Below, piece by piece: positions 26,489 to 46,496 of a stretch of 47,327 bases of DNA (position 1 is its first letter; each line of letters opens with the position of its first letter). Made by a program: the position numbers and the translations under genes. Location of the stretch: assembly GCA_029167225.1 (NCBI GenBank), contig JARFNK010000034.1, forward strand, positions 1-47,327, read 5' to 3'. The notes below the pieces were generated by a model, which worked only from the letters and a program-made list of their open reading frames with translations, ran no database searches and was not told the origin of the DNA. Source of the DNA: Sphingobium arseniciresistens (GTDB taxonomy: Bacteria > Pseudomonadota > Alphaproteobacteria > Sphingomonadales > Sphingomonadaceae).

Positions 26489-26497
26489 GGAGGTGAT

Positions 26498-27508
26498 ATG
26501 AACAGCATAGCGCAAACAGATCGCTTCGCGTCGTTGAGTGCGGCCTCGGGAGACAGGCCAGGATCGGCGCTGCCGATACCATGGAGAGGCGGGCTGGCGG
26601 CAGCCGCGACGTGGGCGCTCACGGCGGCGCTGACTTGGGCATGGCCGGATCTGACGCCATGGGCGCGCACGGGGTTGCTGGCCTGGTTAGAGATCGGCGT
26701 TGCGCTGTTGCTGGCAGGCACGGCGCTGCTGGGCGGAACCAGGCTTGCCGTGATCCATCCTTATGATCGCTGGTTCGGCGCACTGGCTGCGATCCTGTCG
26801 CTATGGCAGGTGTTGACGGCCAAGACGGGCCTGCTCCCATTGCCTTTCTTCCCGCCGCCGCAGTCGATATTGGAAGTCTACACCGACGACGCGGCGCGCC
26901 TGTTCGAAAGCGTCTGGCGATCACTCGTCCTGTTGATCCCCGGTTATGCGATCGGCGGTGGGCTTGGGTTTCTGGCGGGCGCATCCATCGGCTGGTCAAA
27001 GGCGGCCAATTATTGGGGCCATCCGGTGCTACGCTTCGTCGGGCCGCTCCCCGCCACGGCGTGGCTGCCCATCGCCTTTTTCTTCTTCCCCGGTTCGCAC
27101 AGTGCAAGCACCTTCCTGGTCGGACTGGCGACATTCTTTCCCGTAGCCGTGCTGACGGCGTCGGGCGTGAAGGGCGTCAATTCCGCCTATTATGACATCG
27201 CGCGCACCCTGGGCGGGTCGGAACGGTTTTTGATCCTGAAGGTTGCCCTGCCTGCAGCCTTGCCCAATGTGTTTGTCGGCCTATTCATGGGCCTTGGCTC
27301 TTCCTTCGCCGTCCTGATCATCGCCGAGATGATGGGGGTGAAGGCGGGCCTCGGCTGGTATCTGCAATGGGCGCAGGGGTGGGCTGCTTATGCCAATCTC
27401 TACGGCGCGCTGATCGTGATGGCGCTGCTCTTTTCGGGCCTTATTAGCCTGCTCTTCCATGTTCGTGACCGGGTGCTGGCCTGGCAGAAAGGCATCGTGC
27501 GATGGTAA
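26498..27508 (+). CDS. SsuC/TauC-like ABC transporter permease
   Basis: A 336-residue inner-membrane permease. After a longer than usual N-terminus with two hydrophobic segments (about 28-75), it shows the family core: LPLPFFPPPQSILEVY, then GWSKAANYWGHPVLRFVGPLPATAWLPIAFFFF (in pieces) and DIARTLGGSERFLILKVALPAALPNVFVG, the ATPase-contact loop. GAGGAGGTGAT precedes the start. It overlaps the ATPase gene by seven bases. The extra N-terminal membrane segments are somewhat unlike E. coli SsuC, which is about 260 residues. Role: uptake of a sulfonate-like compound, by family and context. Confidence 0.88.
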   Translation: MNSIAQTDRFASLSAASGDRPGSALPIPWRGGLAAAATWALTAALTWAWPDLTPWARTGLLAWLEIGVALLLAGTALLGGTRLAVIHPYDRWFGALAAILSLWQVLTAKTGLLPLPFFPPPQSILEVYTDDAARLFESVWRSLVLLIPGYAIGGGLGFLAGASIGWSKAANYWGHPVLRFVGPLPATAWLPIAFFFFPGSHSASTFLVGLATFFPVAVLTASGVKGVNSAYYDIARTLGGSERFLILKVALPAALPNVFVGLFMGLGSSFAVLIIAEMMGVKAGLGWYLQWAQGWAAYANLYGALIVMALLFSGLISLLFHVRDRVLAWQKGIVRW

Positions 27509-28287
27509 CGACATTGGACGCTCCGGGTGACCAAGGCCTGTCAATCCAGACCCGCAGTGTAGGCCACTGGTTCGAGACCAAGGACGGTCGATTGGATGTG
27601 CTGGACGATGTGACGCTTGACGTCGCGCCCGGCGAGTTCGTCGCATTGCTCGGCCCCAGCGGTTGCGGCAAATCGACTCTGTTGCGGCTGATCGCCGGCC
27701 TGGAGCTACCGTGCACGGGGAAGGTCGGCGCGGACAAGGTGCGGATCGTCGGCCCCGACCCGTCGCGCCTGCTCGTCTTTCAGGATCCCACCCTCTATCC
27801 GTGGCGCACCGTGCGGCAGAATGTCGCGCTGGGGTTGGAAGCGACCGGGCAGGCCAAGGGTTCGGAGAAGCGGATCGACCGGGTGCTCGATCTGGTCGGC
27901 CTGGGCGATTTCGCAGGTGCCCTTCCGAACGAACTGTCGGGCGGCATGGCCCAGCGTGCGGCCCTGGCCCGGGTATTGGTCAACAATCCTCGGCTGCTGT
28001 TGCTCGATGAGCCGTTGGGCAAGCTCGACTCGCTAACCAGAATGACGTTGCAGGCGGAATTGGTGCGCCTGTGGCAGGATTCCCGTTTCACGGCGTTGCT
28101 TGTGACCCATGATGTCGAAGAGGCGCTTCTGCTCGCGCAGCGCATCATCATCTTCAGCCCGCGTCCTGCGCACGTCGTCCGCGAAATTCATGTCGATGCT
28201 GCCTATCCTCGACATCGAGATGCACCGGAACTGCAGGCGCTTCGCCGGGAAATTCTGGTCTCGCTCGGCCACGACCATGAGCTTTGA
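27502..28287 (+). CDS. SsuB/TauB-like ABC transporter ATP-binding protein
   Basis: A 261-residue ATPase: Walker A GPSGCGKSTLLRLI, Q-loop FQDPTLYPWRTVRQN (the PWRTV after the Q-loop is typical of nitrate/sulfonate transporters), signature LSGGMAQRAALARVL, Walker B LLLLDEPLGKLD and switch LVTHDVEEAL. The C-terminal part ends in the usual ILVSLG helix. It overlaps the permease gene and completes an SBP-permease-ATPase operon. No monooxygenase follows on this strand; the LLM gene of the region is on the opposite strand 3 kb away. Confidence 0.92.
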   Translation: MVTTLDAPGDQGLSIQTRSVGHWFETKDGRLDVLDDVTLDVAPGEFVALLGPSGCGKSTLLRLIAGLELPCTGKVGADKVRIVGPDPSRLLVFQDPTLYPWRTVRQNVALGLEATGQAKGSEKRIDRVLDLVGLGDFAGALPNELSGGMAQRAALARVLVNNPRLLLLDEPLGKLDSLTRMTLQAELVRLWQDSRFTALLVTHDVEEALLLAQRIIIFSPRPAHVVREIHVDAAYPRHRDAPELQALRREILVSLGHDHEL

Positions 28288-29123: not shown

Positions 29124-29516
29124 TCAATCGGCGGTGTCCGCGCCACCTGCAGTCAGGGCGTGATAGTGCCGCGCGGCGGTTTCCCCGCCTTCCTGCAACA
29201 GGGGACCGAGCAGCCGGTATCGATCCAGATGTCCTGCTTCGTCGGGCCGGTCCCAGCCATGGTCGCGGCGGACACGGCCCAGGTGCCCCGACGCGCGGAT
29301 CGCTTGGGGATCGACTCTTTCGGCGACGTGCGAGTCCGGCCCGACATAAATGGCGTCGGCCTCGCAATAAAGTTCGCACATGTAACAAGTCTGACACTGG
29401 TCCACTCGGGCGATCACCGGCGCGCCGCCTAAGTCCAAGTCCAACACATGGGTCGGACAGATGGCGACGCAGCGATTGCAGCCGTCGCACAGATCTTCGA
29501 AAATATGCGCGATCAT
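29124..29516 (-). CDS. AprB-like 4Fe-4S dicluster ferredoxin
   Basis: A 130-residue protein with two cluster motifs at its N-terminus: CDGCNRCVAICP (about residues 11-22) and CQTCYMCELYCEADAIYVG (about 41-59). The remaining 70 residues are a charged tail without Cys. The start is the ATG at 29516, which overlaps the flavoprotein stop as ATGA; a longer frame to 29816 lies inside the flavoprotein gene. It should pass electrons to or from the flavoprotein, like AprB with AprA in adenylylsulfate reductases, though AprB's second-cluster spacing and tail may differ. It is the last gene of the LLM-flavoprotein-ferredoxin operon. Confidence 0.85.
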   Translation of the reverse strand: MIAHIFEDLCDGCNRCVAICPTHVLDLDLGGAPVIARVDQCQTCYMCELYCEADAIYVGPDSHVAERVDPQAIRASGHLGRVRRDHGWDRPDEAGHLDRYRLLGPLLQEGGETAARHYHALTAGGADTAD

Positions 29517-31093
29517 TCTGCCGCCTCCGCATAGATCTGGCCTTCCGGCCGAGTCCAGACCCGGTCCAACCCGCCGGTCAGCAGCCGCACTCCGCCCGCC
29601 GGATCGAGCGCGGGCGCATCGATCCGGACATGGATGCCGCGGCTCTCGTTTCGGGCGAGCGCCGCTGCAGTACACCAACGCGCGGTCGCCGTCATGGCGG
29701 CCGTTTCGCGTAGCGCGACCAGCGCCAACCCCTGCGCGCGACCATGATTGCCGATCGTGCGCCAGTGCGTGTCTAGCTGTGCGAGGGTGTCGCTGAGCTG
29801 GGGACGGCTGCGCCACAGTGAATGTTGATAGCCGTTCATATGATGATCAACATCCTTTTCGATCGCCTTGCGGTCGATGCTTTGCTCACTGGACGTGGGC
29901 GCGATCCCCGCCGATCCCACGCCCCGCGCCGCGCCCGCCGCTCTATTCCGCAAGGTCATCCCCCGCCGCGCCGCCGCCGCGCCGGCAATCTGGCCGGATG
30001 TCAGCGCCCAGGCGCTGTTGACCGCGCCCCCGCCGCTGATCGCTCCCGTCGCCAGTTCGCGCGTGGCTGCGTCGCCGGCAGCGTAGAGGCCCGCGACATT
30101 GGTTCCGCAATCGTCATCCACGATGCGCAGCCCACCATTGCCTCGGATCGTGCCTTCGCTGAACAACTTGATCGGCCAGCGCTCCTTGAACAGGTCAACG
30201 CCCTTGCGTACGAAGGGCGGCGGAGTGAAGGGCTGGATGTCCTTCAGGATCGGCGGCAGCGCAGCGGGTGCGTCGATCAGGTCGGCATAGACCGGTCCTT
30301 TCAGTAGCGCCGCACCCAGCGCCTGATAATGGGCATGGCCGCGCGGCGGCACGACGATCTCGGACCCCGCCGCATCATAATAACGGGCTGCGCCGTAGGG
30401 CAAAGTCCGTGTTGAAGCCCAGGCGGGCGATACCGTATATTGGATGGAGAACTCCATGCCGGAAAGCTCCGCGCCCGCCTCCGCCGCCATTAGATAGCCG
30501 TCGCCCGTATTGCCGTGGCTGCCAATCAGTCCGGATCTAAACGCACAGCCGCCGGTCGCCATGACCACAGCGCCAGCCTGTATCTCCCAGTCCGCGCCAA
30601 CCAGTCGGGCATGGCCCCTTGCCCCAGCGACCGCGCCGGATTCGTTGGTCAGCAGCTGGATTGCAGGATGATGGTCAAGGATGCGCGCGCCCGCCGCGGT
30701 CGCATAGGCGCGCAGCGCGCGCATATATTCCGACCCGCGCACGCCGCTATAGTAAATGCCGCCGTTGCCATCCGATCCGAAGCGGTAATAGGGTGCAAGG
30801 TCGGGCAGGGTTTGCCAAGTGGTGTCGATTACACGCTCCATCCACGCCGGATCGCCCAGACCAAGGCCCGCAGCGTGCCGTTGCTCGATCGCCTCGCGCC
30901 GCCGCGCCGGATCGGGCGGTATCCACCAGTGATTGGGCCCACCGGTCGCGGTCACGCCACTGGTGCCGACATATCCCTTGTCGACAAGGATGACGGCCGC
31001 GCCCGCCTTCGCAGCGGCGATCGCCGCCCAGGCGGCCGCCATCCCTCCGCCGATGACCAGCACATCGCAACGTTCAGTCAGAATATCGCTCAC
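29513..31093 (-). CDS. FAD-dependent oxidoreductase, fumarate reductase / AprA-like flavoprotein
   Basis: A 526-residue flavoprotein of the fumarate reductase/succinate dehydrogenase superfamily. The FAD-binding N-terminus is DVLVIGGGMAAAWAAIAAAKAG with an acidic residue in VDKGYVG, then SGVTATGGPNHWW. MATGGCAFRSG lies in the middle. The C-terminal FAD segment is GTNVAGLYAAGDAATRELA, followed by GGGAVNSAW. There is no signal peptide, so it is cytoplasmic. It overlaps the LLM gene (ATGA) upstream and the ferredoxin (ATGA) downstream, so all three are made together. The flavoprotein-dicluster ferredoxin pair mirrors AprA-AprB, but with no sat gene and in a monooxygenase operon; its substrate is unknown and sulfur oxyanion or sulfonate chemistry is inferred. 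Confidence 0.85.
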   Translation of the reverse strand: MSDILTERCDVLVIGGGMAAAWAAIAAAKAGAAVILVDKGYVGTSGVTATGGPNHWWIPPDPARRREAIEQRHAAGLGLGDPAWMERVIDTTWQTLPDLAPYYRFGSDGNGGIYYSGVRGSEYMRALRAYATAAGARILDHHPAIQLLTNESGAVAGARGHARLVGADWEIQAGAVVMATGGCAFRSGLIGSHGNTGDGYLMAAEAGAELSGMEFSIQYTVSPAWASTRTLPYGAARYYDAAGSEIVVPPRGHAHYQALGAALLKGPVYADLIDAPAALPPILKDIQPFTPPPFVRKGVDLFKERWPIKLFSEGTIRGNGGLRIVDDDCGTNVAGLYAAGDAATRELATGAISGGGAVNSAWALTSGQIAGAAAARRGMTLRNRAAGAARGVGSAGIAPTSSEQSIDRKAIEKDVDHHMNGYQHSLWRSRPQLSDTLAQLDTHWRTIGNHGRAQGLALVALRETAAMTATARWCTAAALARNESRGIHVRIDAPALDPAGGVRLLTGGLDRVWTRPEGQIYAEAAE

Positions 31094-32433
31094 TCCGCGG
31101 CGAGGGCAACCGTTGCCCGCGCGTGCCGATGCTCGGGGACAGGCAGGCCCAGATGCCCGCGCAGCGTGTCATGGGCATAGTCGGCGCGGAACAGGCCGCG
31201 CGCCTGGAGGATCGGTACCACGTTCTCACGGAAAAGGGCGAAGTCGCCCGGCCGCGTCACGCGCAGGATGAAGCCGTCCGCCGCGCGCCCGGTGAACCAG
31301 CGCTCGATCTCGTTGGCAATCGTCTCAGGCGATCCCACGAAATCGGACCGCCACTGGCCGAAGCGATAGGCCGCCTGTCGCAGCGTCAGCTTTTTGTCCC
31401 TCGCCACGCGGATGACACGTTCAGCCCCTCCTTTGTAGCTGTTGAGCGTCACACCCGACAGGTCAGGGAATGGGGCATCCAGATCATATTTCGAGAAGTC
31501 ATGATAGTTGAAAAGCCGCCCGACCTGGGTCAGCAGCTTCTCGATGCTGAGCTTGCCTTGCTGCGCCGCTGCGATAGCCTGCGCTTCCTCGTCGGTCTTC
31601 GCAATGGTGGGGACGAGGCCCGGCATCACCTTGATGAGGTCGGGGTTGCGCCCCAGCGCCGCCGCCCGCGCCTTGAGGTCGGCATAATAAGAGCGCCCGC
31701 TTTCGAAATCCTGCGAGGCGGCGAAGGTGCCCTCGGCAATCGCCGCGCCAAGCGCCCGCCCCTCGCCGCTTTCGCCGGCCTGGAAGATCACCGGCTGGCC
31801 CTGCCGCGACCGGCTGAGCGCCAGCGGCCCGGCGACCGAGAAATGCGTGCCCTGGTGATCGAGGCGATGCTGCTTACTCTTGTCGAGGAACACGCCCGCC
31901 ACGCTGTCGCGCGGGAAGGCGTCGTCCTCATAACTGTCCCACAGGCCCTTGACCACTTCGACGAACTCGCGCGCGCGCGCATAGCGCACGCCATGCTCGA
32001 AATGGGCGTCGCGCCCGTAATTCTGCGCCGCGCCTTCGAGGCCGGTGGTGACGACATTCCAACCCGCCCGGCCCCGGCTGATATGGTCGAGCGACCCGAA
32101 CTGCCGCGCGACATTATAGGGCTCCCAATAAGAAGTGGTGAGCGTGCCGACGAGGCCGATGCGCGACGTGCTCGCCGCCACCGCCGACAACAGGGTCAGC
32201 GGCTCCAGCCGATTGAGGAAATGCGGCGCGGTATCGGGCGTGATGTAGGGGGAATCGACGATGAAGACGAAATCGAACTTCGCAGCCTCGGCGAGGCGGG
32301 CATTCTCGATGTACCAGCCAATGTCGATGCTGGCGTCGCCGGGCAGGTCCGGGTCAAGCCAGCTATGATGGTCGGCGCCGACGCCTTCCAATATCGCGCC
32401 CAGATGCAATTGCCGTTCGGCCCAGTGGCCCAT
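31090..32433 (-). CDS. LLM class flavin-dependent monooxygenase, NtaA/SnaA/DszA branch (second copy)
   Basis: A 447-residue FMNH2-dependent monooxygenase. It shares with the enzyme at 7083-8411 the layout KFDFVFIVDSPYI, LVGTLTTSYWEPYNVARQFGSLDHISRGRAGWNVVTT (in pieces) and QPVIFQAGESGEGRALG, so the two are distant paralogs. GCAGGAGGATCGAGC before the ATG is a strong ribosome-binding site. It heads the operon with the AprA-like flavoprotein and ferredoxin. In sulfur-acquisition clusters, this branch oxygenates C-S or C-N bonds (DszA on sulfones). No NAD(P)H:FMN reductase is nearby; the downstream redox pair could in principle supply reduced flavin, which would be new. Confidence 0.9.
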   Translation of the reverse strand: MGHWAERQLHLGAILEGVGADHHSWLDPDLPGDASIDIGWYIENARLAEAAKFDFVFIVDSPYITPDTAPHFLNRLEPLTLLSAVAASTSRIGLVGTLTTSYWEPYNVARQFGSLDHISRGRAGWNVVTTGLEGAAQNYGRDAHFEHGVRYARAREFVEVVKGLWDSYEDDAFPRDSVAGVFLDKSKQHRLDHQGTHFSVAGPLALSRSRQGQPVIFQAGESGEGRALGAAIAEGTFAASQDFESGRSYYADLKARAAALGRNPDLIKVMPGLVPTIAKTDEEAQAIAAAQQGKLSIEKLLTQVGRLFNYHDFSKYDLDAPFPDLSGVTLNSYKGGAERVIRVARDKKLTLRQAAYRFGQWRSDFVGSPETIANEIERWFTGRAADGFILRVTRPGDFALFRENVVPILQARGLFRADYAHDTLRGHLGLPVPEHRHARATVALAAE

Positions 32434-32745
32434 GCTCGATCCTCCTGCCAGAAGCAGCCGCGACGGTAGAGCGGAGGCGCACGAGGGACCAACGAGAGCT
32501 GCTCAACCACTGCTGATTTTGTTCAAAGGGAAGCGTGGGTTTCAGCCCCTCAAACTATTGAAACTTCTCGATCCTGCGCCGACGCCGCCAACAGGTCTGC
32601 GCGAAAATGGCGAAAAAGCGTGACGCGCGCGCCGTGATCATATGCGTCCGAGGATTACTCATGGGAGATGTCCGCCTGGCTGACTTACCCATTGATGCAT
32701 TGCTCCCGCCAAATCGGAGTCACCTCGTAGGAAAGGAGCCGTCCC
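32434..32745. promoter_or_regulatory. Divergent intergenic region
   Basis: About 310 bases between the LLM gene and the TauD-like pseudogene, which point away from each other, so both promoters should lie here. GGAAAGGAG precedes the TauD start. No palindrome or known regulator site was recognised. Confidence 0.4.
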
Positions 32746-33667
32746 ATGGCTACCGTCGCACCCGACAGCGTCACCGACATCCTTGACATCCGCCCGCTCC
32801 AGCCGACCATCGGCGCGGAGATCCACGGGCTTGATATCTCCCAGCCGATCAGCCAGCAGGTGCGCGATGCGATCCGCGACGCCGTGCTTCGCTACAACGT
32901 CGTCTTCTTCCGCGACCAGCAACTCGACAACGACAGCCACGCCGCCTTCGCCCGGGAATTCGGCGGCCCGCTCTACACCCATCCCAGCACGCGGCACGAT
33001 CCCAAGATCACGCCCATCCACAATATCGCGGCGGTCGACAACGCACGCTTCGACAAACAGTATTCGCGGGCGAAGATCAGGCCAGGCGAAGCCGTTCGCA
33101 CCGACACCAGCTGGCGGCTGGTGCCGACATGGGGCGCGGTGCTGCGCGCGGTCGATCTGCCGCCGGTCGGCAGCGACACCATCTGGGTGGATGCCAACCT
33201 CGCCTACAAAGGTCTGTCCGACGATCTCAAGGCGCGGCTTGAAGGGCTGCACGTCACGCATGATTTTCGCCCCTCGCTGCTGGCCGAAGGTCATGACTAT
33301 CCGATCGTCGCGCATCCCGTGATCCGCACACACCGGGAGACCGGAAAGAAGGTCCTCTGGGTCAACCTGACCCAGAACCCGCAGATACTGGGCGTCGAAC
33401 TTACCGAAAACCGTGCGCTGATCGACGAAATCCTGCTCCAGTACAAGCGCCCCGAATTTCAGGTGCGCTTGGGAGCCGGGCTCGGTCGCCTTCTGGGACA
33501 ATCGCGCCGCGTTCCATTATGCGGTGCGCAACTATGGCGACTATCCGCGCCTGCTGCACCGCGTGCTGATCGCCGACGAACCTCTGCGGGGCAACCCTGA
33601 GAGCGCCTCTGCCATGGCGCTCTCTTGCGGACGCCGACGATCGATCAGTATCGGAAGGCGGCCTTGA
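32746..33667 (+). pseudogene. TauD/TfdA-type 2-oxoglutarate dioxygenase with frameshift and lost metal ligand
   Basis: A Fe(II)/2-oxoglutarate dioxygenase of the AtsK/TauD kind, which releases sulfite or sulfate from organosulfur compounds. The N-terminus (IGAEIHGLDIS, then VVFFRDQQL) is normal. Two lesions are visible. The iron-binding HxD motif reads VRTDTSW, with Arg118 (CGC, 33097-33099) in place of His. At about 33468-33471 the frame shifts: VRLGAGLGRLL should read VRxxWEPGSVAFWDN, consistent with a five-base deletion. In the +1 frame the C-terminus resumes with AFHYAVRNYGDYPRLLHRVLIADEP, including the distal His and 2-oxoglutarate Arg, and would stop at 33667, overlapping the receptor gene's end. 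The intact frame would give a wrong 284-residue tail. The product should be inactive. Confidence 0.88.
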
Positions 33668-37612: not shown

Positions 37613-39052
37613 TCACAGGAGGCCGTCGGAGGAGCCACCAGCCAGTATATCCAATGCTGCGGGACTGGTTGTCGTGACGTTCAGACGCGTAAACGCGCTG
37701 TAGTCCGGGCTGGACGTAAATATGCGGGCCGGCGCGGCCAAAAAGTCCTGCTCGGCCATCCGGTGATGGATCATATCCGCCCGCTCAGAGGTTCCTAGCG
37801 ACAGCCAGACGAACGGACCTGTCCCGGGGATATCGACTCGATACCCAGCCTCGCAAAGCTGAGAGATGACGCGTCTTCGCTCAACGGCAATATGCTTGGA
37901 TAACGATCGCTGGCGCCGCTCAAACTGGCCATCCTCGAGCAACTGGTACATGGCGCGCTCGGGGATCAGATTGAGCCCCAGCCCATGAATCTCTCGAAAA
38001 AGCCTGAACCGGTTCAGCTGAACCCCTCCTGCCGCCAGATAACCGACACCCAGGCTCGGGGTCATGACGCGGGAGAAGCTGCCGATATGAACTACCCTCC
38101 GCAGCCCCCCCAACATGGCCAGCGGGGTCCAGATCGTATGGGCATCAGCGGGGCGCAGATCGGCGTAGCTCGCATCATCTACGATAACGATATTGAACTC
38201 GTCGGCTAACAGCAGCATCTGATGCGCGTTGGCCGCAGTGATGGCAGATCCGGTCGGGTTATGGCCCATCGAACTGCAAAAGAGGATACGCGGCCGATGT
38301 GCCTCGCAGAGTTTGCGCAACACCTCGATATAAGGCCCCTCCCGTTTACGCGGAACCGTCACGATTTCGGCACCCTGCGACAGGAGTAAGATTTGGTGGA
38401 GGAAAGGGCCGGGATCTTCCACAACCGCAACATCGCCTGGGCGAACCAAGCCGCGCACGACGATGTTCATGATCCCGGTCGCCCCGGTTGCGGTGATGAT
38501 CGAAGCGGGTTCGCAGCTTATGCCTTCGCTGGCCAGTTTACGCTGCAACTGCCGACGCAGAGGAAGATAGCCCTGCGGATCGCCATAGCCCGGATTTAAG
38601 TTTGGGCGGGTACGCAAGGCCGAGCGAAGCGCATTTCGCGCACGGTCGCTTGTCTCATTGGGCGCTTGGATGAGACCAGTGCCGGGCATGCGATCGATCG
38701 GACGATCCATCCGTAGAAGCGTTTCCCAGCCGTTCGCAGCGCTTGCTTTCATGATCGCCGCGGGCGCCAATTGAAGCGATGATGGGTCGTCGGCCCGGAC
38801 GTAGTATCCAGATCCACGCAGTGCCTCGACATCGGCGGCATGCACCAGCCTCTGATAGGCCCGGACGACCGTATCGGGAGAAATCCCGAAGCGCTTTGCC
38901 ATGTTCCTGACCGACGGAAGCCGCGTGCCGGGCGGCAGAGCGCCGGACCGGATATGTTCGAGCACAAGACGGAACAGCCGATCGGATACCTGCCCCCCGG
39001 CTTCTTCCTGCCTGTCGAGCGCGGTTCGAGAAAAAATTTCCTCGGATTCCAT
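37613..39052 (-). CDS. MocR-family (GntR-HTH plus aminotransferase-like) regulator lacking the PLP lysine
   Basis: A 479-residue protein. The N-terminal winged helix (LPPGTRLPSVRNMAKRFGIS followed by TVVRAYQRL and a GSGYYV wing, about 35-80) binds DNA. The rest is a fold-type I aminotransferase domain, which in MocR proteins senses a ligand through PLP. Active-site-like parts are visible: SSMGHNPTGSAI (substrate-binding Asn) and VDDASYADLR (the Asp-X-X-Tyr pair). The Schiff-base Lys, normally in SFSK, is Arg328 here (GSFSRVMTPS; codon 38069-38071). It may bind PLP weakly, another ligand, or none. It is divergent from the TonB receptor gene, which it probably controls. Confidence 0.88.
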   Translation of the reverse strand: MESEEIFSRTALDRQEEAGGQVSDRLFRLVLEHIRSGALPPGTRLPSVRNMAKRFGISPDTVVRAYQRLVHAADVEALRGSGYYVRADDPSSLQLAPAAIMKASAANGWETLLRMDRPIDRMPGTGLIQAPNETSDRARNALRSALRTRPNLNPGYGDPQGYLPLRRQLQRKLASEGISCEPASIITATGATGIMNIVVRGLVRPGDVAVVEDPGPFLHQILLLSQGAEIVTVPRKREGPYIEVLRKLCEAHRPRILFCSSMGHNPTGSAITAANAHQMLLLADEFNIVIVDDASYADLRPADAHTIWTPLAMLGGLRRVVHIGSFSRVMTPSLGVGYLAAGGVQLNRFRLFREIHGLGLNLIPERAMYQLLEDGQFERRQRSLSKHIAVERRRVISQLCEAGYRVDIPGTGPFVWLSLGTSERADMIHHRMAEQDFLAAPARIFTSSPDYSAFTRLNVTTTSPAALDILAGGSSDGLL

Positions 39053-39326
39053 AGCATGGCTTCCTTGATAGAATTGTACTGCTCGTCACGTACATACACA
39101 TGGCCCAAGAAAGTGCCAATTGTATGGATCGTGGCGGCACATAGGTCTTGTCGCACGATCTTTGTGTCAGTTATGTTTCAAGCGCACCCAATGACAGAAG
39201 AGTGGAGTTAAACGCCTTATCGCGTGCAATCCGTTGCCAATCTATACAATTCAACAAAACAAATAATAATAATATTTCGGTTCCAGGAGCTACAGGAGTT
39301 TTCATCGTCACAATATAGGGGGAATT
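39053..39326. promoter_or_regulatory. Divergent promoter region with a TGTAC inverted repeat
   Basis: The region between the MocR gene and the receptor gene. TGTAC (39075-39079) and GTACA (39090-39094) are inverted repeats with a ten-base spacer, just upstream of the MocR start, and are a candidate autoregulatory site. From about 39224 the sequence is AT-rich (promoter-like), and a GGGGG ribosome-binding site precedes the receptor ATG. Confidence 0.45.
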
Positions 39327-41639
39327 ATGCTGAGAATGCTATCTCGCCAAACTTCGGTCCTTTCTATTATTTTAGCAACAACTTCATTGTGCAGTACATC
39401 TCCGGTCTTTGCGCAGGGGCAGGCGACTGTCATCCAGCATAGGGCGGATACACTGTCGGTAACTCTGCGCGCCATCGCGACACAAACGGGCATCACGATC
39501 CGGTTCGATCCCAAGAAGCTCGCCGAGATCAAGGGCCGGCCTGTCGACGCGACGAGCGCGCGCGAGGCGATCGCCCAAGCCATCGAGGGCACCTCGCTCA
39601 ACCTTTCGGGGAATGACGAGGTCGGCTATCATGTCGGCAAGGATAACGTCGCTATGGGAAGCGACGGAGACATCGTCGTCACGGCCCAACGCGACGAGGC
39701 TGAAAAGCGCTATCTGGTCCGAACCACGGCGTCTTCGACACGCGATGGCAAGATGCTGCGGGATCAGCCACAGTCCGCAACCGTTGTCAGCAGCAAATTA
39801 CTTGCCGATCAGCAGATCCAGACAGTCGCCGAGGCGCTGCGCAACGCTGCAGGTGCGACGGTCAATCTTGGTAACGGCCAAGGCAATGCAAGCTACACCG
39901 TGCGCGGCTTTTTCGCACAGCCGCTGACCGGCGGCCTGCGCGACCCCAGTGCGCTTACCCAGCCGGTTATCAACGTGGAACGCGTGGAGGTGCTCAAGGG
40001 TCCGGCCGCCCTCCTTGCTGGCGCTGATAACCTGGGCGGGTCGGTCAACATCGTCACCAAGAAGCCGATCGCGCAACCCCTCCTCAATGCCACACTGGAA
40101 TATGGTTCCTTCGAGGATGTGCGAGCCGCCCTGGATGCATCGACCGCGCTCGATCCCGACAAGCATTTCAGCACACGATTCGTGGGCCAATATGCGCGAG
40201 CCGATCGCAACGCGGGTCATTATGACGGGCGCTTTGAGAACCTGATCGCGCCTTCGCTGCGATACAAGGATGCCAAGTTCGATCTGACCGTCGGCGTGGA
40301 ATATTCCGACGTCCGCGCGCCCTCGCCTCCCTTCGGCGCTTTCAACTTTGCCGGCCAATTGATCGACCTCACCGACAAGGGGATCGGCCCGAAGGACTCT
40401 GGCATCCGCGTCGAAACCCGACGCACCTTCTATGATGCTCAATGGGCACCAACCAACTGGCTAACCCTCGTCAGCCGCTCCCAGATTTCCTGGACCGACA
40501 CTGCCCTCAAGCTCTACGGACTTCAGGTAAACACGAGCCCCACCAATTCCATACTTGTCAAAAATGATGAGACACAGCGGGTACGCACCGGCGCGACCGA
40601 CAACTATGCCCGCCTGAACTTCAACACCGGTCTCATCAAGCACACAGTCTCGGTAGGCATAAATTACACCAATTATCGTAATCAGGACTATGTGCCGCAG
40701 TCGACCGCCGACACGACGCTCATGGGAAATCTGTTCGGTGCAGCTCCGCTACCTTATGCGGCTTTCCGGCCAGATGTGAGCTGGAACTATACCGCGGTCG
40801 TACGGCAGACCGGCTATTACGGGCAGGATCTGATGGAATGGGGCCCCGTGCATGTGCTCGGTGCGCTTCGACACAGCAAGTTCACGAGCAGGACCACCAC
40901 TGCGGCTGGCCCCAGTCAAAATGGCGACAGCAGCTTAACGCCGCAGGTCGGGGCTATGCTCGATCTGACCCGCCGCCTGTCGATCTACGCCAACTATATT
41001 CAGGGCTTCTTGCCGCAATTCCTCATCGATGGCGACGGCAATCCACTACCGCCGCAAAAGTCTCGTAACATCGAGGCCGGGTTGAAATGGGACATTGTTC
41101 CGGATCGGCTGGCATTCAATGCCTCCGTCTTCCGCCTGCGCCAGTCCAACCTCCCCGTTGCCATTCCTGGAAGGCGTGGCCGTTACAACATCATCGACGG
41201 TCAGGAATCGCGGGGCATCGAAGCGGATCTCACTGGCGAGATCCTGCGCGGATGGGACATCGCTGCAAGCTACAGCTACGGCACATACAAGCTGCTGAAC
41301 CCGACGGCCGCCAGGGCGGTGGTGGCGGGCCAGCCCGAGCATCGTTATAGTCTGTTCACGCGATATACCGTGCAGGACGGTTCTCTCAAATCGCTCGGCG
41401 GGGCTATCGGTCTTTATGGCTTTTCCAAGAGCAACGTCGACCAGATCGGCAGGTTTGTGCTGCCCGCCCAGAAATCGGTCAACGCCAATATCTATTATGA
41501 CTTCAAGAGGTTTTCGTTGAATGTTGGCGTTGATAACCTGCTCGACGACAAGGTGTACGGAGTGTCGACAGCGAGCACGACCATTCCGGTCGATCCGGTT
41601 CGGACCTACCGTGTCACGCTGATCTATCACGCCTTCTGA
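39327..41639 (+). CDS. TonB-dependent receptor with STN domain, siderophore-receptor type
   Basis: A 770-residue outer-membrane receptor. A signal peptide ends near residue 31 (SPVFAQG). Next is an STN (secretin/TonB N-terminal) domain, about 38-105 (ADTLSVTLRAIATQTGITI, then DATSAREAIAQAIEGTSL). The TonB box region is DGDIVVTAQR. The plug follows with VRGFFAQPLTGGLRD and VERVEVLKGPAALLAG, and the barrel ends in Phe (IYHAF). STN domains signal to an anti-sigma factor (FecR) in ferric-siderophore systems; no FecI/FecR pair is in the window, so the signal may instead be lost or go elsewhere. Next on the strand come an SbmA-like ABC transporter and a peptidase, so the ligand may be a peptide or peptide siderophore. 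Confidence 0.92.
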   Translation: MLRMLSRQTSVLSIILATTSLCSTSPVFAQGQATVIQHRADTLSVTLRAIATQTGITIRFDPKKLAEIKGRPVDATSAREAIAQAIEGTSLNLSGNDEVGYHVGKDNVAMGSDGDIVVTAQRDEAEKRYLVRTTASSTRDGKMLRDQPQSATVVSSKLLADQQIQTVAEALRNAAGATVNLGNGQGNASYTVRGFFAQPLTGGLRDPSALTQPVINVERVEVLKGPAALLAGADNLGGSVNIVTKKPIAQPLLNATLEYGSFEDVRAALDASTALDPDKHFSTRFVGQYARADRNAGHYDGRFENLIAPSLRYKDAKFDLTVGVEYSDVRAPSPPFGAFNFAGQLIDLTDKGIGPKDSGIRVETRRTFYDAQWAPTNWLTLVSRSQISWTDTALKLYGLQVNTSPTNSILVKNDETQRVRTGATDNYARLNFNTGLIKHTVSVGINYTNYRNQDYVPQSTADTTLMGNLFGAAPLPYAAFRPDVSWNYTAVVRQTGYYGQDLMEWGPVHVLGALRHSKFTSRTTTAAGPSQNGDSSLTPQVGAMLDLTRRLSIYANYIQGFLPQFLIDGDGNPLPPQKSRNIEAGLKWDIVPDRLAFNASVFRLRQSNLPVAIPGRRGRYNIIDGQESRGIEADLTGEILRGWDIAASYSYGTYKLLNPTAARAVVAGQPEHRYSLFTRYTVQDGSLKSLGGAIGLYGFSKSNVDQIGRFVLPAQKSVNANIYYDFKRFSLNVGVDNLLDDKVYGVSTASTTIPVDPVRTYRVTLIYHAF

Positions 41640-41661
41640 GCATCCAGTTGGGCAATGACGT

Positions 41662-41690
41662 GTGGGCCATGCCATTGCGGCATGGCCCAC
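41662..41690 (+). terminator. Perfect 12-base hairpin between receptor and ABC transporter
   Basis: GTGGGCCATGCC (41662-41673) pairs perfectly with GGCATGGCCCAC (41679-41690) around ATTGC. There is no U tract. It lies 23 bases after the receptor stop and could be a partial terminator or an mRNA-stabilising stem that lowers expression of the downstream genes. It argues against translation of the transporter starting inside it. Confidence 0.6.
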
Positions 41691-41718
41691 CGATGCAAAA
41701 TATTATGGAGATAATGGT

Positions 41719-43470
41719 GTGAGAGCCCGACATTCGCACGGCAAATGGCGTCAAGTGCTACGCATCGCGCGCATCTACTGGCTGTCGCGCGACTGGAAAT
41801 TCGCCTGGTTTGGGTTGATCGTCCTAACCGCACTCCAATTTGGCACCGCCTCGATCTTTTTCTACAGCAATCGTTGGCAACAGGCCTTCTTCGATAGTAT
41901 TGGCGAGCGCGACGTCGCGCGATTCTATCCGCTGATTGGCGTATTCATTATCCTTATCGCGCTGCAGGTCGGCGTTCAAATTGCCAACAGCTGGCTCGAC
42001 ATGAAGGTCAGCATCGGCTGGAGGTCAGCGCTGACCGACCATTATCTCGGCCGGTGGATGAAGGACAACCGCTTTGCCGAAATCGAGCGACTTCGACTGA
42101 TCGATAATCCCGACCAGCGCATCGCCGAAGACATCGCGATAGTGACCGGAAACGCCCTAAATTCGGGCGGCCTTCTTCAGATTTTCCTGGTCATGCTTGC
42201 AGCGATCGCGTCCGCCGTCGGCTACGGGATCATCCTGATGGAGACAGCCGAACCCATCCGCTTCCCACTACTGGGATATCCGATTAGCATTCCGGGAAGC
42301 ACGATCTGGTACGCGGCCCTTTACGCCATTATCGGCAGTGTCGTGATCACCAAAGTCGGACGGCCGTTGATCCGTGCGACGATGGAGTGGCAACATAGAG
42401 AAGCAAACTTCCGCGCAAATCTGATACACGTTCGCCGGAATGCCCCTCAGATCGGCCTGGTCGGCGCCGTGAGCACGGAAGACTCTGCGCTTCGTCTATC
42501 GTTCGAGCATGTGCGGCATATCTACAAGCGGGTGATATACACGACGCTTGGCGTTCGCGCGGTTCAGGATGTCTATCAGGTGATCCGACCTGTCATTCCC
42601 CTGTTCGTGCTCGTGCCGCGCTATTTCGCCGGGACGATCAGCCTCGGCCAGGTCATGGCCGGCCGTGACGCGTTCCAGCAGTTTGCCAACCAACTTTCCT
42701 TCTTCGTGCAAATCTATCCGTCGCTGACGGGGCAGCTTGCCTGCCTCAACCGTCTCGCAGCGCTCGACGATGCTCTCGATCTGCGCCGTGCGCACGGCAT
42801 CGAGATGCTTTCCCGGTCGAACCAAGATGGCGTCGTAATGCAGACGCAAGATCTTGCCCTTTTCCGGCCGAATGGCGCGCCATTGCTCGAGGTGGGCGAC
42901 TGGACGGTACGGAGCGGCGAGCGCTGGCTGATCCGCGGCGCGTCTGGCGTGGGCAAGACGACCTTGCTGCGTGCGATCGCCGGCTTGTGGCCGGAAGGGC
43001 GTGGCAACGTCGCCATGGAGCGCGACGGCTTGATGATGTTCGTGCCGCAGCGGCTTTACCTGCCGCTCGGCACCCTGAAGGCTGCGATCTGCTTCCCCGA
43101 TACGACCGAAGCACATTCCGACGCCGAGATCCTGGACCTACTCAATCGGGTCGGGCTCTCGAGCCACGCGGAACATCTCGATGTCGCTCGCATGTGGCAG
43201 GAGGAGCTTTCGCCGGGTGAACAGCAGCGCGTCGCGCTTGCGCGCATTCTGCTGCATCGACCAAGCGTTGTTGTCATGGACGAGGCTACGAGTGCGCTGG
43301 ATCCCGAAAATGTCCGCCGCTTCCACGAGGAAATCCTCGCGCTCTCGTCCGCTACAACGCTGATCAGCGTCGGGCATGACGAGGCTTTGGCGCAGTTTCA
43401 TACCCACCAATTGACGGTACGCGAGGGCCAGGTCTCGACTGGACCCATCGCCGAGCCGGCCAATCACTAA
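41719..43470 (+). CDS. SbmA/BacA-like membrane domain fused to ABC ATPase (ABCD/YddA type)
   Basis: A 583-residue half-transporter. The N-terminal membrane domain (about 1-330, several helices) has the SbmA/ABCD features NRWQQAFFDSI and RLIDNPDQRIAEDI. The C-terminal ATPase has Walker A GASGVGKTTLL (about 411-421), signature LSPGEQQRVALARIL and Walker B VVVMDEATSALD. Relatives import peptides (microcins, bleomycin) or cobalamin. The start is taken as GTG 41719, with GGAG about ten bases upstream, because the earlier ATG at 41662 lies in a hairpin. It is downstream of the TonB receptor and upstream of a thioredoxin and a peptidase, which fits uptake of a peptide-like ligand across the inner membrane. 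Confidence 0.88.
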   Translation: MRARHSHGKWRQVLRIARIYWLSRDWKFAWFGLIVLTALQFGTASIFFYSNRWQQAFFDSIGERDVARFYPLIGVFIILIALQVGVQIANSWLDMKVSIGWRSALTDHYLGRWMKDNRFAEIERLRLIDNPDQRIAEDIAIVTGNALNSGGLLQIFLVMLAAIASAVGYGIILMETAEPIRFPLLGYPISIPGSTIWYAALYAIIGSVVITKVGRPLIRATMEWQHREANFRANLIHVRRNAPQIGLVGAVSTEDSALRLSFEHVRHIYKRVIYTTLGVRAVQDVYQVIRPVIPLFVLVPRYFAGTISLGQVMAGRDAFQQFANQLSFFVQIYPSLTGQLACLNRLAALDDALDLRRAHGIEMLSRSNQDGVVMQTQDLALFRPNGAPLLEVGDWTVRSGERWLIRGASGVGKTTLLRAIAGLWPEGRGNVAMERDGLMMFVPQRLYLPLGTLKAAICFPDTTEAHSDAEILDLLNRVGLSSHAEHLDVARMWQEELSPGEQQRVALARILLHRPSVVVMDEATSALDPENVRRFHEEILALSSATTLISVGHDEALAQFHTHQLTVREGQVSTGPIAEPANH

Positions 43471-43508
43471 ACAGCGAATTCAACCAATCGCATGAGAAGG
43501 AAGTTAAT

Positions 43509-43850
43509 GTGAGCATGATCACCCCCATCGGAGAGGGAGAACTCCCGACTTTCGTTGAAGCCAACGAAGGCAAAGCGCAACTCCTCGTTTTTAGCGCACC
43601 GTGGTGCGGCCCCTGCAAGGCGATGGCGCCAACGGTGGACGATGTTGCGGAGGATTACAAAGGCACCCTTGCGGTGGGTAAGATCGACATCGACGAGGCG
43701 CCTGCGCTCGCTGCCCAGTACGCCGTGCGCTCGGTGCCCACTCTCATCGTCCTGCGCGACGGCGCTGAGGTCCAGCGCTCGCTCGGTGGCCTCAGCCGTA
43801 CGCGGCTGACCATGTTGCTCGATAAGGCAATTGCGGGAGAGACGGCATGA
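43509..43850 (+). CDS. Thioredoxin
   Basis: A 113-residue thioredoxin with the active site FSAPWCGPCKAM (Cys33 and Cys36) and the cis-Pro loop VRSVPTLIV. There is no signal peptide, so it is cytoplasmic, unlike most cargo-specific redox proteins. It starts with GTG (or ATG at 43515) after AAGGAAG. It lies 38 bases after the ABC transporter and overlaps the next gene by ATGA. A dedicated thioredoxin in an uptake operon suggests reduction of disulfides in the imported molecule or of a Cys in a partner enzyme. It is compact and intact. Confidence 0.93.
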   Translation: MSMITPIGEGELPTFVEANEGKAQLLVFSAPWCGPCKAMAPTVDDVAEDYKGTLAVGKIDIDEAPALAAQYAVRSVPTLIVLRDGAEVQRSLGGLSRTRLTMLLDKAIAGETA

Positions 43851-44458
43851 ACCCTGCCGTAGAGGTGTTGCTTCAGCGCCTGAAAGCATCGGACGACGTG
43901 GTGCAGAGCCTCGCCGATACCGGTACCGATCTTGCGCACGGGATGGTGCTCTGGATGATCGAGGAAGGCGGCCCCGCTCCCGGGCAGGCGGCCGTGGTGC
44001 TCGATGAACTCACGACCTTGCATCGTCGAGAGGCGGCGGGTGAAACTGTCGAGCCGGCGCAATGGCGTGCGGTGCGGCAAAAGGCTGTCGATCTGAGCGA
44101 GATGCCGGATGTGAGCACCCAGCGCGCCGGCGGCATCGCCGAGGCTGCGGCATGGTCTGTGACTCAGTCGAAATCGATCCTGTCGGACCTCCTCAATGCG
44201 CTGACGAACAACGCCTGGAAGGCAGGGTCGGAATCGACCGGATGGACGCCGGCAGACGAAACGAATGCCCATAAAGTCCTAAGTGGCTTCCACGCCGAGG
44301 GTCTTGTGCGCGAGCAGATTCCAGGACGGTTTGCCGAGGTCGATCCCGAGCTTTCGGGACGCTTTGTCGCACAGCTCGATGCCGCCAACACCGCAGCGCT
44401 CGCGATGCCGGCCAAGGTGCTGAATACTTTGCAGCGCCTGGCTCATCAGGACGCCTGA
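43847..44458 (+). CDS. Protein of unknown family, 203 residues
   Basis: I do not recognise this protein. It is soluble, acidic, rich in Ala and predicted mostly helical, with no signal peptide, Cys or obvious metal motif. Segments include LADTGTDLAHGMVLWMIEEGG (in pieces, near the N-terminus), WRAVRQKAVDLSE, AAAWSVTQSKSILSDLLNAL and a C-terminal ALAMPAKVLNTLQRL. Its first codon overlaps the thioredoxin stop (ATGA), so the two are coupled. Gene order puts it between the thioredoxin and the peptidase. It could be a binding or adaptor protein for the imported ligand, or an immunity-like protein; neither is shown by sequence. Confidence 0.7.
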   Translation: MNPAVEVLLQRLKASDDVVQSLADTGTDLAHGMVLWMIEEGGPAPGQAAVVLDELTTLHRREAAGETVEPAQWRAVRQKAVDLSEMPDVSTQRAGGIAEAAAWSVTQSKSILSDLLNALTNNAWKAGSESTGWTPADETNAHKVLSGFHAEGLVREQIPGRFAEVDPELSGRFVAQLDAANTAALAMPAKVLNTLQRLAHQDA

Positions 44459-44475
44459 GCCCAGGCTCGCACTGA

Positions 44476-44493
44476 CGGCGACCACCGTCGCCG
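44476..44493. other. Small GC-rich hairpin before the S9 peptidase gene
   Basis: CGGCGAC and GTCGCCG pair perfectly with the loop CACC, 17 bases after the unknown gene's stop. With no U tract it is more likely an mRNA stem that affects expression of the peptidase gene than a full terminator. Confidence 0.35.
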
Positions 44494-44516
44494 ACACCTA
44501 TCCCAGGACATTTGCC

Positions 44517-46496
44517 TTGCTGAAATCCGTACCGCTAATCTCCCGCTCGTTGCTGTTTCGGCCGCCGGATTTCAGTAGCGTGAAGATCAGTCCTGATGGG
44601 GCCTGGCTTGCCTGGTGCGCGCCTTCAAAGGGCGTGGCCAATATCTGGCTGGCGCCGCGGGAGCATCCTGAGCAGGCCCGACTGCTGACGAACGACCAAC
44701 ATCGCGGCATCACCACGTTCATGTGGGCCGAGGATGCAGCGCATATCCTTTACAGCCAGGACCGCGATGGCGACGAGATCGTCCATCTTCATGCGATCCG
44801 GGTGTCGGATGGCGAGACGCGTGACCTGACCCCTATCGCCGGTGCTCGGGGCTTCGTTGTCGCGACCAGCCCGCGCCACCCTGGTGCTGTCGTCGCAGCG
44901 ATCAACGACCGGGTTGCGGGATGGCCCGATCTCTGGCGGATCGACATCGCCACTGGCGAGCGGCAGCTGCTCTGTCGGAACGACGGCATGGGCTCCTTTT
45001 TGCTCGATGATGACTTCACCGTTCGCATCGCGTCACGGCAGGAGCGGGAGGGCGGATTCACCCTGATGCGGCCGAGCGGCCAGGACGGCTGGACAGAATG
45101 GCTGGCGTTTGACCCCGAGGAGGCGCGGACTTCGGCGCTGCTCGGCCTCGACGCTCAAGGGCAGTCAGTCTTTCTCAAGGATAGCCGTGGCCGCGATACG
45201 GCAGCCTTGGTGGAGATCGATGTTGCCAGCGGCCGGGAAGCAGTCTTGGTCGAAAGCCCGCTCGCAGACGTAGGGGGGATGATCACCGATCGCCGCAGCT
45301 ATCGGCCGGTCGCCTGCTATGTGACCGTCGAGCGTCCCGTTCTGACGGTGATCGATCCCGCGATACAATCCGACATCGACCGCTTGGGTGCGATCGAGGG
45401 CCTGGGCGAGTGGAGCATAACGGCCCGCAGTCGCGAGGATCGCTGGTGGACCATCGTCTCCGGCTCGGACCAGCATCCGGCCATCTACTGGCTGTACGAC
45501 CGGGAGGCAGGGACGCTGCTTCGCTTGTTCGACGGACGTCTGGGCCTCAGAGACGCGCCCCTCGCTCCGATGAGAGCATTGACCATCACAGCCCGGGATG
45601 GGCAGCGGCTTGTCAGCTATCTGACGCTGCCCCTGCGGGATGAAGCTGAAAGCCGGCCCGAACGACCGCTGCCGCTAATCCTGCTCGTGCACGGTGGTCC
45701 ATGGACCCGCGATGGTTTCGGCTACAACAGCGAGCATCAATGGCTCGCCAACCGCGGCTACGCTGTCCTTTCGGTGAATTTCCGGGGGTCGAGCGGGTTC
45801 GGCAAGGCTTTCATGCTGGCGGGCGACCGCCAATGGGGTCGTCGGATGGATGACGATCTCGAGGACGCAGTGGCCTGGGCCATTGATGAAAGTATCGCCG
45901 ATCCGATGCGCTTGGCGATCATGGGCACAAGCTATGGTGGCTACGCCGTGTTGTCCGCGCTTACCCGTCAGCCTGACCGCTACGCGTGCGGCGTCGACAT
46001 TGTCGGCCCCTCCAACCTCGAGACATTGCTTCTCGCGACGCCACCCCAATGGGAGGCGCTGCGTGCCACCCTTCATCGGGCGGTGGGCGACCATCTCAGC
46101 GAGGAAGGACGTGCCGATCTCCACGAGCGTTCGCCGCTACACCGTGCGGGAGAGATCAAGGCGCCCCTCCTGATCGGCCAGGGGGGGAATGACCCTCGCG
46201 TGCCTTTGGCGGAGGCCGAGCAGATGGTCACCGCGATGCGCGCCAGCGCTGTCCCGGTCGACTACGCGTTCTTCCCCGATGAAGGGCACGGCTTCGCGCG
46301 TCCTGCCAACGCCATCGCTTTCCGGATCCTGGTCGAGCAATTCTTTGCCAGGCATCTTGGCGGTCGCGCCGAACCGGTCGTGCCTGGGGAATGTGCGGAA
46401 ACGTCCCTGCGTTTCGAGGGGGAGGCCGAGCTTAGCGCCAGTCTCGAAGCCGGAAAGGCGTCCGAACAATCTCCCGCAACGGCCCTCGATGCGTAA
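44517..46496 (+). CDS. S9 prolyl-oligopeptidase family serine peptidase
   Basis: A 659-residue protein with a beta-propeller N-terminal half (residues about 15-370; FSSVKISPDGAWLAWCAP, NIWLAPREHPEQARLL) and an alpha/beta-hydrolase C-terminal half. The latter has LLVHGGPWTRDGFGYNSEHQW, then VNFRGSSGFGKAF, nucleophile Ser in GTSYGGY (about 471), Asp in GGNDPRVP (about 557) and His in DEGHGFARP (about 590). No signal peptide is evident, so it acts in the cytoplasm. The frame opens with TTG at 44517; the exact start is unsure. The family includes acylaminoacyl peptidases and the isopeptidases that open lasso peptides. Position at the end of the receptor-transporter operon suggests digestion of the imported peptide. 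Confidence 0.9.
   Translation: MLKSVPLISRSLLFRPPDFSSVKISPDGAWLAWCAPSKGVANIWLAPREHPEQARLLTNDQHRGITTFMWAEDAAHILYSQDRDGDEIVHLHAIRVSDGETRDLTPIAGARGFVVATSPRHPGAVVAAINDRVAGWPDLWRIDIATGERQLLCRNDGMGSFLLDDDFTVRIASRQEREGGFTLMRPSGQDGWTEWLAFDPEEARTSALLGLDAQGQSVFLKDSRGRDTAALVEIDVASGREAVLVESPLADVGGMITDRRSYRPVACYVTVERPVLTVIDPAIQSDIDRLGAIEGLGEWSITARSREDRWWTIVSGSDQHPAIYWLYDREAGTLLRLFDGRLGLRDAPLAPMRALTITARDGQRLVSYLTLPLRDEAESRPERPLPLILLVHGGPWTRDGFGYNSEHQWLANRGYAVLSVNFRGSSGFGKAFMLAGDRQWGRRMDDDLEDAVAWAIDESIADPMRLAIMGTSYGGYAVLSALTRQPDRYACGVDIVGPSNLETLLLATPPQWEALRATLHRAVGDHLSEEGRADLHERSPLHRAGEIKAPLLIGQGGNDPRVPLAEAEQMVTAMRASAVPVDYAFFPDEGHGFARPANAIAFRILVEQFFARHLGGRAEPVVPGECAETSLRFEGEAELSASLEAGKASEQSPATALDA

Follow-up and report, generated by a model that had tools for sequence, protein, structure and literature searches.

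The SbmA-like proteins are importers: SbmA and BacA take up antimicrobial peptides and Rv1819c takes up B12 (PMC3603451, in excerpt). In sphingomonads, the AtxE2-type lasso peptide loci combine a TonB-dependent receptor (TBDR), FecI/FecR and an S9 isopeptidase. We analysed an operon resembling both in a draft genome of Sphingobium arseniciresistens (6.6 Mb in 120 contigs, with a contamination of 6.02% estimated by the tool used). It lies on contig C49, whose full length of 47,327 bases is called the window here, and encodes a TBDR, an ATP-binding cassette (ABC) transporter, a thioredoxin (Trx), a protein that we call U and an S9 serine peptidase, divergent from a MocR-type regulator gene. Like the AtxE2-type loci, it has a TonB receptor beside an S9 enzyme and no export role, but its S9 enzyme falls outside the lasso isopeptidase family NF033523, and it adds an inner-membrane ABC importer, Trx and U. 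The ABC protein carries an SbmA/BacA-like membrane domain and an ATPase in one chain as does Rv1819c, the importer type for vitamin B12 and bleomycin, and from its family it is expected to import; it differs from Rv1819c in sitting in an operon with a receptor, Trx and peptidases, and from the SbmA/BacA (SLiPT) importers, whose SbmA_BacA membrane domain it shares, in its fused ATPase.

Other described systems share single features with this operon and its relatives. The TldD/TldE protease, which feeds on unfolded peptides (PMC5810440, in excerpt), is linked in 18 of 24 related loci tabulated below; unlike the known enzyme of microcin B17 maturation, these copies stand in uptake operons, and the window operon is without them. 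The TldD/MoxR operon is a different arrangement (PMC7688217, in excerpt). The M16 peptidases HrrP and SapA are accessory enzymes that degrade cysteine-rich legume (NCR) peptides (PMC8175422, in excerpt), and M16 genes occur in four of the 24 loci, but an NCR-like ligand for the operon would be an analogy only. The chaperedoxin CnoX, in the partial account consulted, joins a thioredoxin to a helical partner domain as two fusion proteins described below do, but a tetratricopeptide repeat domain was not detected in U (no Pfam family), and U is found in import operons. The Stenotrophomonas TBDR-pTFP pair also links a receptor to a thioredoxin-fold protein, but that protein is periplasmic and manganese-regulated, and the two-gene locus is without ABC, U or peptidase (PMC13217887, in excerpt). 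In a term search of its text, a survey of sphingomonad TonB-dependent transporters named no peptidase, thioredoxin or SbmA (PMC7142613). Full-text searches of open-licence papers, in which absence is no proof, gave no description of this gene set, which the preliminary description of the window had not recognised either. We conclude that it is a real, recurring operon type, apparently undescribed.

The recurrence was followed from two directions. U was first searched for in a set of 397 genomes from the family, which led to four genomes with neighbourhoods that had the same receptor and ABC genes but other peptidases. The ABC proteins of these four genomes were 49-52% identical to that of the window, and their alignment was used to scan 84,980 species genomes. 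The scan gave 25 loci, comprising 16 close loci (48-58% identity), five from Burkholderiaceae (36-38%) and four distant partial matches. The close loci were from Niveispirillum, Caulobacter, Erythrobacter, Sphingobium, Sphingomonas, Novosphingobium, Sphingosinicella, Parasphingorhabdus and an unassigned alphaproteobacterial metagenome-assembled genome. The receptor gene stood ahead of the ABC gene in all 16, and Trx followed by U was present in 15 of the 15 not cut by a contig end (the remaining one, L018, ends just past ABC), while none of the five Burkholderiaceae loci had the partner genes. Starting from U, an 18-member profile matched 12 of the 397 family genomes at E <= 0.01. The system was present in eight of them (the source genome with two loci, G029, G036, G242, G281, G318, G361 and G395) and absent in the other four, where the match was at a contig edge (G343), stood alone (G368) or had E ~0.003 (G207 and G227). 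U was matched in only one of 385 genomes of a class sample, the source genome itself, and in six of 398 of a phylum sample, with the system in the source genome, G973, G1069 and G971 and without it in G922 and G1113. Because matches to U were so few in the three samples, we regard the operon type as rare, scattered and accessory. U and the operon were also found on three plasmid records, two of whose carriers came from plant samples (Chinese cabbage and mango). On the plasmid of Sphingomonas sp. NY01, the unit MocR-M16-TBDR-ABC-Trx-U has a copy of one small protein on either side, as though it sat in a mobile element.

Gene fusions gave the decisive evidence that these genes form a unit. In locus L109, from another family in the phylum sample, the order is MocR, TBDR, ABC, Trx, U::S9, Cds1, TonB, ExbB, ExbD, M17 leucyl aminopeptidase and M24 aminopeptidase; U::S9 is one protein of 935 aa, with U followed by S9 as in the gene order of the window. 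In two genomes of one genus from a further family (L110 and L111), Trx and U form single proteins of 421 and 442 aa, with TldD, TldE, ExbD, ExbB, TonB, FecR and FecI as neighbours and divergent TBDR and ABC genes (L114 and L115). Together with the reciprocal survey, these fusions indicate that the neighbourhood is not due to chance. The preliminary description had expected five co-occurring genes and held that finding them unlinked in relatives would count against a common function; ABC, Trx and U recurred together from either starting point and were not found scattered in this way, whereas the S9 position proved to be a variable slot. The source genome has a second copy of the system on contig C77, where TldE, TldD, S9A, TonB, ExbD, ExbB, FecI, FecR, ABC, Trx, U and DUF2891 lie within ~15 kb, with a receptor at the edge. 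Since TldE/TldD are encoded there, with two more PmbA/TldD genes on C1 and C88, this protease could serve the window system from elsewhere in the genome.

To describe the composition of the operon type, 24 distinct loci, 15 picked by ABC and nine by U, were tabulated within 11 kb of the ABC gene. Trx and U were present in all 24, partly by selection, and the receptor was counted by similarity in 20; of the rest, L046, L064 and L065 have a receptor by Pfam, and L070 starts inside ABC at the start of its record. All 24 loci contained at least one peptidase, namely TldE (18), TldD (18), M3 (13), M16 (4), S9A (1) or the S9 of the window kind (1, the window itself). A Cds1-like cysteine desulfhydrase was found in 12 loci and TrxB in four, together with LysR (14), MocR (4), FecI (3), DUF2891 (7) and GNAT (2) genes. 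In L015, a short Cds1 match fell under the count threshold, FecI lies at a distance of ~9.5 kb and probably does not belong to the operon, and the M16 protein has a hydrophobic leader by eye. DUF2891 genes lay near ABC in L022, L024, L025, L027, L028, L029 and L046, and a hydantoinase/5-oxoprolinase-type gene stands immediately ahead of the LysR gene of the operon in L029 (2694-6275). TrxB exceeded its equivalog cut-off (TIGR01292, 384.4 against 343.45 bits), but M3 (oligopeptidase A, 673.6 against 927), the pyridoxal phosphate (PLP) enzyme (L-cysteine desulfhydrase Cds1, 546 against 600), TldD (NF008006, 488 against 513) and TldE (PmbA, 256 against 438) did not, and they are therefore named by their nearest family. 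All six TldD copies of the operon type that were inspected had the HExxxH motif. When 27 loci were considered, the S9 of the window kind was found in two, the window and L109, so that TldE/TldD and not S9, which had been proposed as a fixed member of the set, is the usual peptidase.

Table 1. Genes of the operon and its divergent regulator in the window.
Feature	Position	Strand	Evidence and remarks
MocR-type regulator, GntR helix-turn-helix (HTH) and aminotransferase-like domains	37613..39052	-	PF00392, PF00155; divergent from operon
Divergent intergenic stretch, presumed control region of MocR and operon	39053..39326	.	gene coordinates alone
TonB-dependent receptor, siderophore-receptor subfamily	39327..41639	+	TIGR01783 249 bits (cut-off 223.5); PDB 3qlb
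ABC transporter, SbmA/BacA-like membrane domain fused to ATPase, Rv1819c type	41662..43470	+	GTG start; PF06472, PF05992, PF00005
Thioredoxin, WCGPC, taken as cytosolic	43509..43850	+	GTG start; PF00085 82.7 bits
Protein U, 203 aa (short form), all-helical model	43847..44458	+	ATG start; ATGA overlap with Trx
S9 serine peptidase, triad motifs intact	44517..46496	+	TTG start; PF00326 150.6 bits

All six genes were open in a check of the reading frames, and their order, as first described, agreed with the Pfam and NCBIfam assignments (Table 1). The gaps between TBDR and ABC, ABC and Trx, and U and S9 are 22, 38 and 58 bp, and the ATGA coupling claimed within the operon was located at 43847-43850, where Trx and U overlap. 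MocR proteins usually bind PLP through a lysine. Aligned to 2egy, the window MocR has R328 at the position of the PLP lysine of the aminotransferase fold, and the same arginine was found in L015, L072, L063 and L109 (5/5 looked at, including the window), suggesting that the window MocR probably does not sense its signal via a PLP Schiff base.

The window receptor has Plug and barrel domains, and its TIGR01783 membership is a subfamily label that does not prove the ligand. Its best relative in the PDB is the enantio-pyochelin receptor (E 9e-36), and the best solved relatives are the pyochelin, FhuE, FoxA, CntO and FpvA receptors. The TonB-dependent part of the "TonB-STN receptor" first described was thus borne out, but the Pfam STN domain was not reported at E <= 0.001; alignments to FpvA, FoxA and CntO, which carry a signalling domain, begin at residues 9-47. 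In the window ABC protein, ABC_membrane_2 scored 112.6 bits, SbmA_BacA 80.9 (cut-off 24) and ABC_tran 71.9, the last at residues 413-544 with Walker motifs; the motifs GASGVGKT, LSPGE and VVVMDE are intact. Its best PDB relative is 6tqe (E 2.3e-67, residues 29-596), and it falls below the equivalog cut-off of SbmA (PRK11098, 75.9 against 492 bits). Sphingomonas montana (L030) has an operon with two ABC fusion genes in tandem, possibly encoding a heterodimer.

The window Trx falls narrowly under the equivalog cut-off of TIGR01068 (89.7 against 96.8 bits), and a signal peptide was not apparent by eye. Protein U matched no Pfam, NCBIfam or PADLOC family in library searches, and its AlphaFold2 model has a pLDDT of 96.2. 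The Trx stop and U start overlap in 18 of the 18 loci looked at; the overlap measures 4 bases in 16 of them and a single base in the other two. U is a constant part of the operon type and belongs to no named family. In one cluster (L065, G281), U and thioredoxin matches each occur three times, alongside TrxB, TldD/E and Cds1. Prophage-like proteins in L113 (9620-10282, G1113) and L069 (G343) have the N-terminal part of U in common, and one of them runs on into Ala/Asp/Tyr repeats.

On balance, we think that the operon probably imports a peptide, opens its disulfides by Trx and U and degrades it in the cytosol. The TonB receptor would capture the peptide outside the cell, and the SbmA/Rv1819c-like ABC protein would move it across the inner membrane with ATP, a putative direction suggested by its family. 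In the cytosol, where Trx, U and the peptidases are placed by their families and no signal peptide was seen by eye, Trx would reduce the disulfides with U, presumably its dedicated partner because the two genes overlap and are fused elsewhere, and the peptide would be opened. TldD/E admits and cuts only unfolded peptides (PMC5810440, in excerpt), so a reductase that opens disulfides would be needed ahead of it. The opened peptide would be cut by S9 in the window system and by TldE/TldD, M3, M17 or M24 in relatives, some of which add a periplasmic-looking M16 enzyme. The Trx::U and U::S9 fusions together suggest that U may be a physical bridge from Trx to the peptidase. Half of the tabulated relatives have a Cds1-like enzyme, which would go on to release sulfide from the cysteine so freed; this points to a ligand that contains cysteine and is probably disulfide-bridged. 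The most likely use is the scavenging of sulfur and nitrogen, with disposal of a toxic peptide a close second. Capture, inner-membrane import, reduction and cleavage had been suggested before, and this core is supported by the reciprocal linkage, the fusions and the peptidases that swap in one slot; the lasso-type S9 and its constancy did not hold.

Several points weigh against this reading. The receptor is related to siderophore receptors, so the ligand could be a non-peptide or be bound to a metal, and proteins with ABC_membrane_2 take other cargo too, such as the B12 of Rv1819c (PMC3603451, in excerpt). A cytosolic Trx could protect enzymes instead of opening cargo. Cds1 is missing from 12 of the 24 loci, including the window, where neither Cds1 nor TldE/TldD is linked to the operon. 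The grouping of the S9 enzymes of the window and L109 (53.7% identical), at 98/98 in IQ-TREE against 17 Sphingomonadaceae S9 proteins (45.3-48.9% identical to the window S9), speaks for the unit, but it comes with a bootstrap that had not settled, an unusual composition of both sequences and a long branch for the window S9; the best bit score of the L109 S9, 633 with L084, was tied by 632 with the window. Peptide ligand, transport and cleavage are predictions from gene content and family membership.

The preliminary description had compared the window S9 with the lasso-opening S9 enzymes of sphingomonads, and the lasso-type protease domain PF13471 does occur at five loci of the source genome, on C1, C12, C32, C35 and C40 (L098-L102), with a TBDR-linked S9 close to every one of them. 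A sixth TBDR-linked S9 lies on C76 (L103), and the lasso set of this genome is unusually rich. The Ser-Asp-His motifs GTSYGG, NDPRVP and DEGHG are intact in the window S9, in which inspection by eye showed no signal peptide, and part of its length is ~25% identical to lasso isopeptidases. With NF033523 (cut-off 400), however, it scored 91.3 bits, against 391.3-814.0 for the six TBDR-linked S9 enzymes elsewhere in the same genome, five of them above the cut-off, and by this measure it is no AtxE2-like isopeptidase. L074, read on the wrong strand, does not count among these controls. The S9 family itself is common, with matches at E <= 1e-120 in 150 of the 397 family genomes. The window contig has no match to PF13471, the sole marker of lasso biosynthesis searched (the precursor gene was not searched), and TldE/TldD, M3 or M16 replace S9 in relatives, which makes uptake and opening of a lasso peptide by such an isopeptidase very improbable.

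An operon for the destruction of an antimicrobial peptide, be it plant defensin-like, a microcin, a lasso peptide or another, that enters anyway via the receptor and ABC protein or is drawn in for this purpose, would agree with the import of such peptides by SbmA/BacA (PMC3603451), with the action of HrrP on plant cysteine-rich peptides (PMC8175422), both in excerpt, given M16 in four loci, and with the two carriers from plants. A receptor and an importer in one operon would increase uptake, which is odd for defence, and Cds1, M17 and M24 suggest that the amino acids are used completely; we therefore consider detoxification unlikely. Somewhat less likely still is metal acquisition, in which a peptidic or thiazoline-type metal chelator would enter intact, Trx would reduce it and hydrolysis would free the metal. 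The TIGR01783 receptor with its siderophore-receptor relatives and the FecI/FecR and TonB/ExbBD genes linked in some relatives speak for it, whereas the loci read had no gene labelled as a ferric reductase or siderophore interaction protein, such a route would need neither broad peptidases nor Cds1, and the regulator is LysR or MocR in 18 of the 24 loci.

Elsewhere in the window, 7083-8411, 25418-28287 and 29124-33600 contain two luciferase-like monooxygenases, an NMT1-type ABC importer, a TauD-family dioxygenase and an FAD and 4Fe-4S pair, a set that might form an island for organosulfur compounds or xenobiotics, and a 7 kb part matches a Sphingobium yanoikuyae plasmid (82.7%). A TraI-like helicase gene or remnant lies at 19157-21349, and repeats on other plasmids match the contig over its final 83 bases. 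C49 may thus derive from a plasmid or an island and end in a repeat.

Returning to peptide import and degradation, we tentatively propose, as a possibility short of probable, a new pathway that has spread horizontally and on plasmids over several Pseudomonadota families and harvests disulfide-bridged plant or microbial peptides, in which, after capture by the receptor and ATP-driven import, U, as a new kind of thioredoxin partner in a Trx-U machine, would hand the reduced and opened chain directly to S9 or TldD/E and Cds1 would recover the cysteine sulfur. The set is small, found in type strains and testable. If true, the pathway would be a full route of uptake and degradation for disulfide peptides, a class usually viewed as weapons or signals. 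An unnamed protein family would gain a task, and U, being always tied to Trx in these loci and naturally fused to Trx or a peptidase, would be a new coupling of disulfide reduction to proteolysis.

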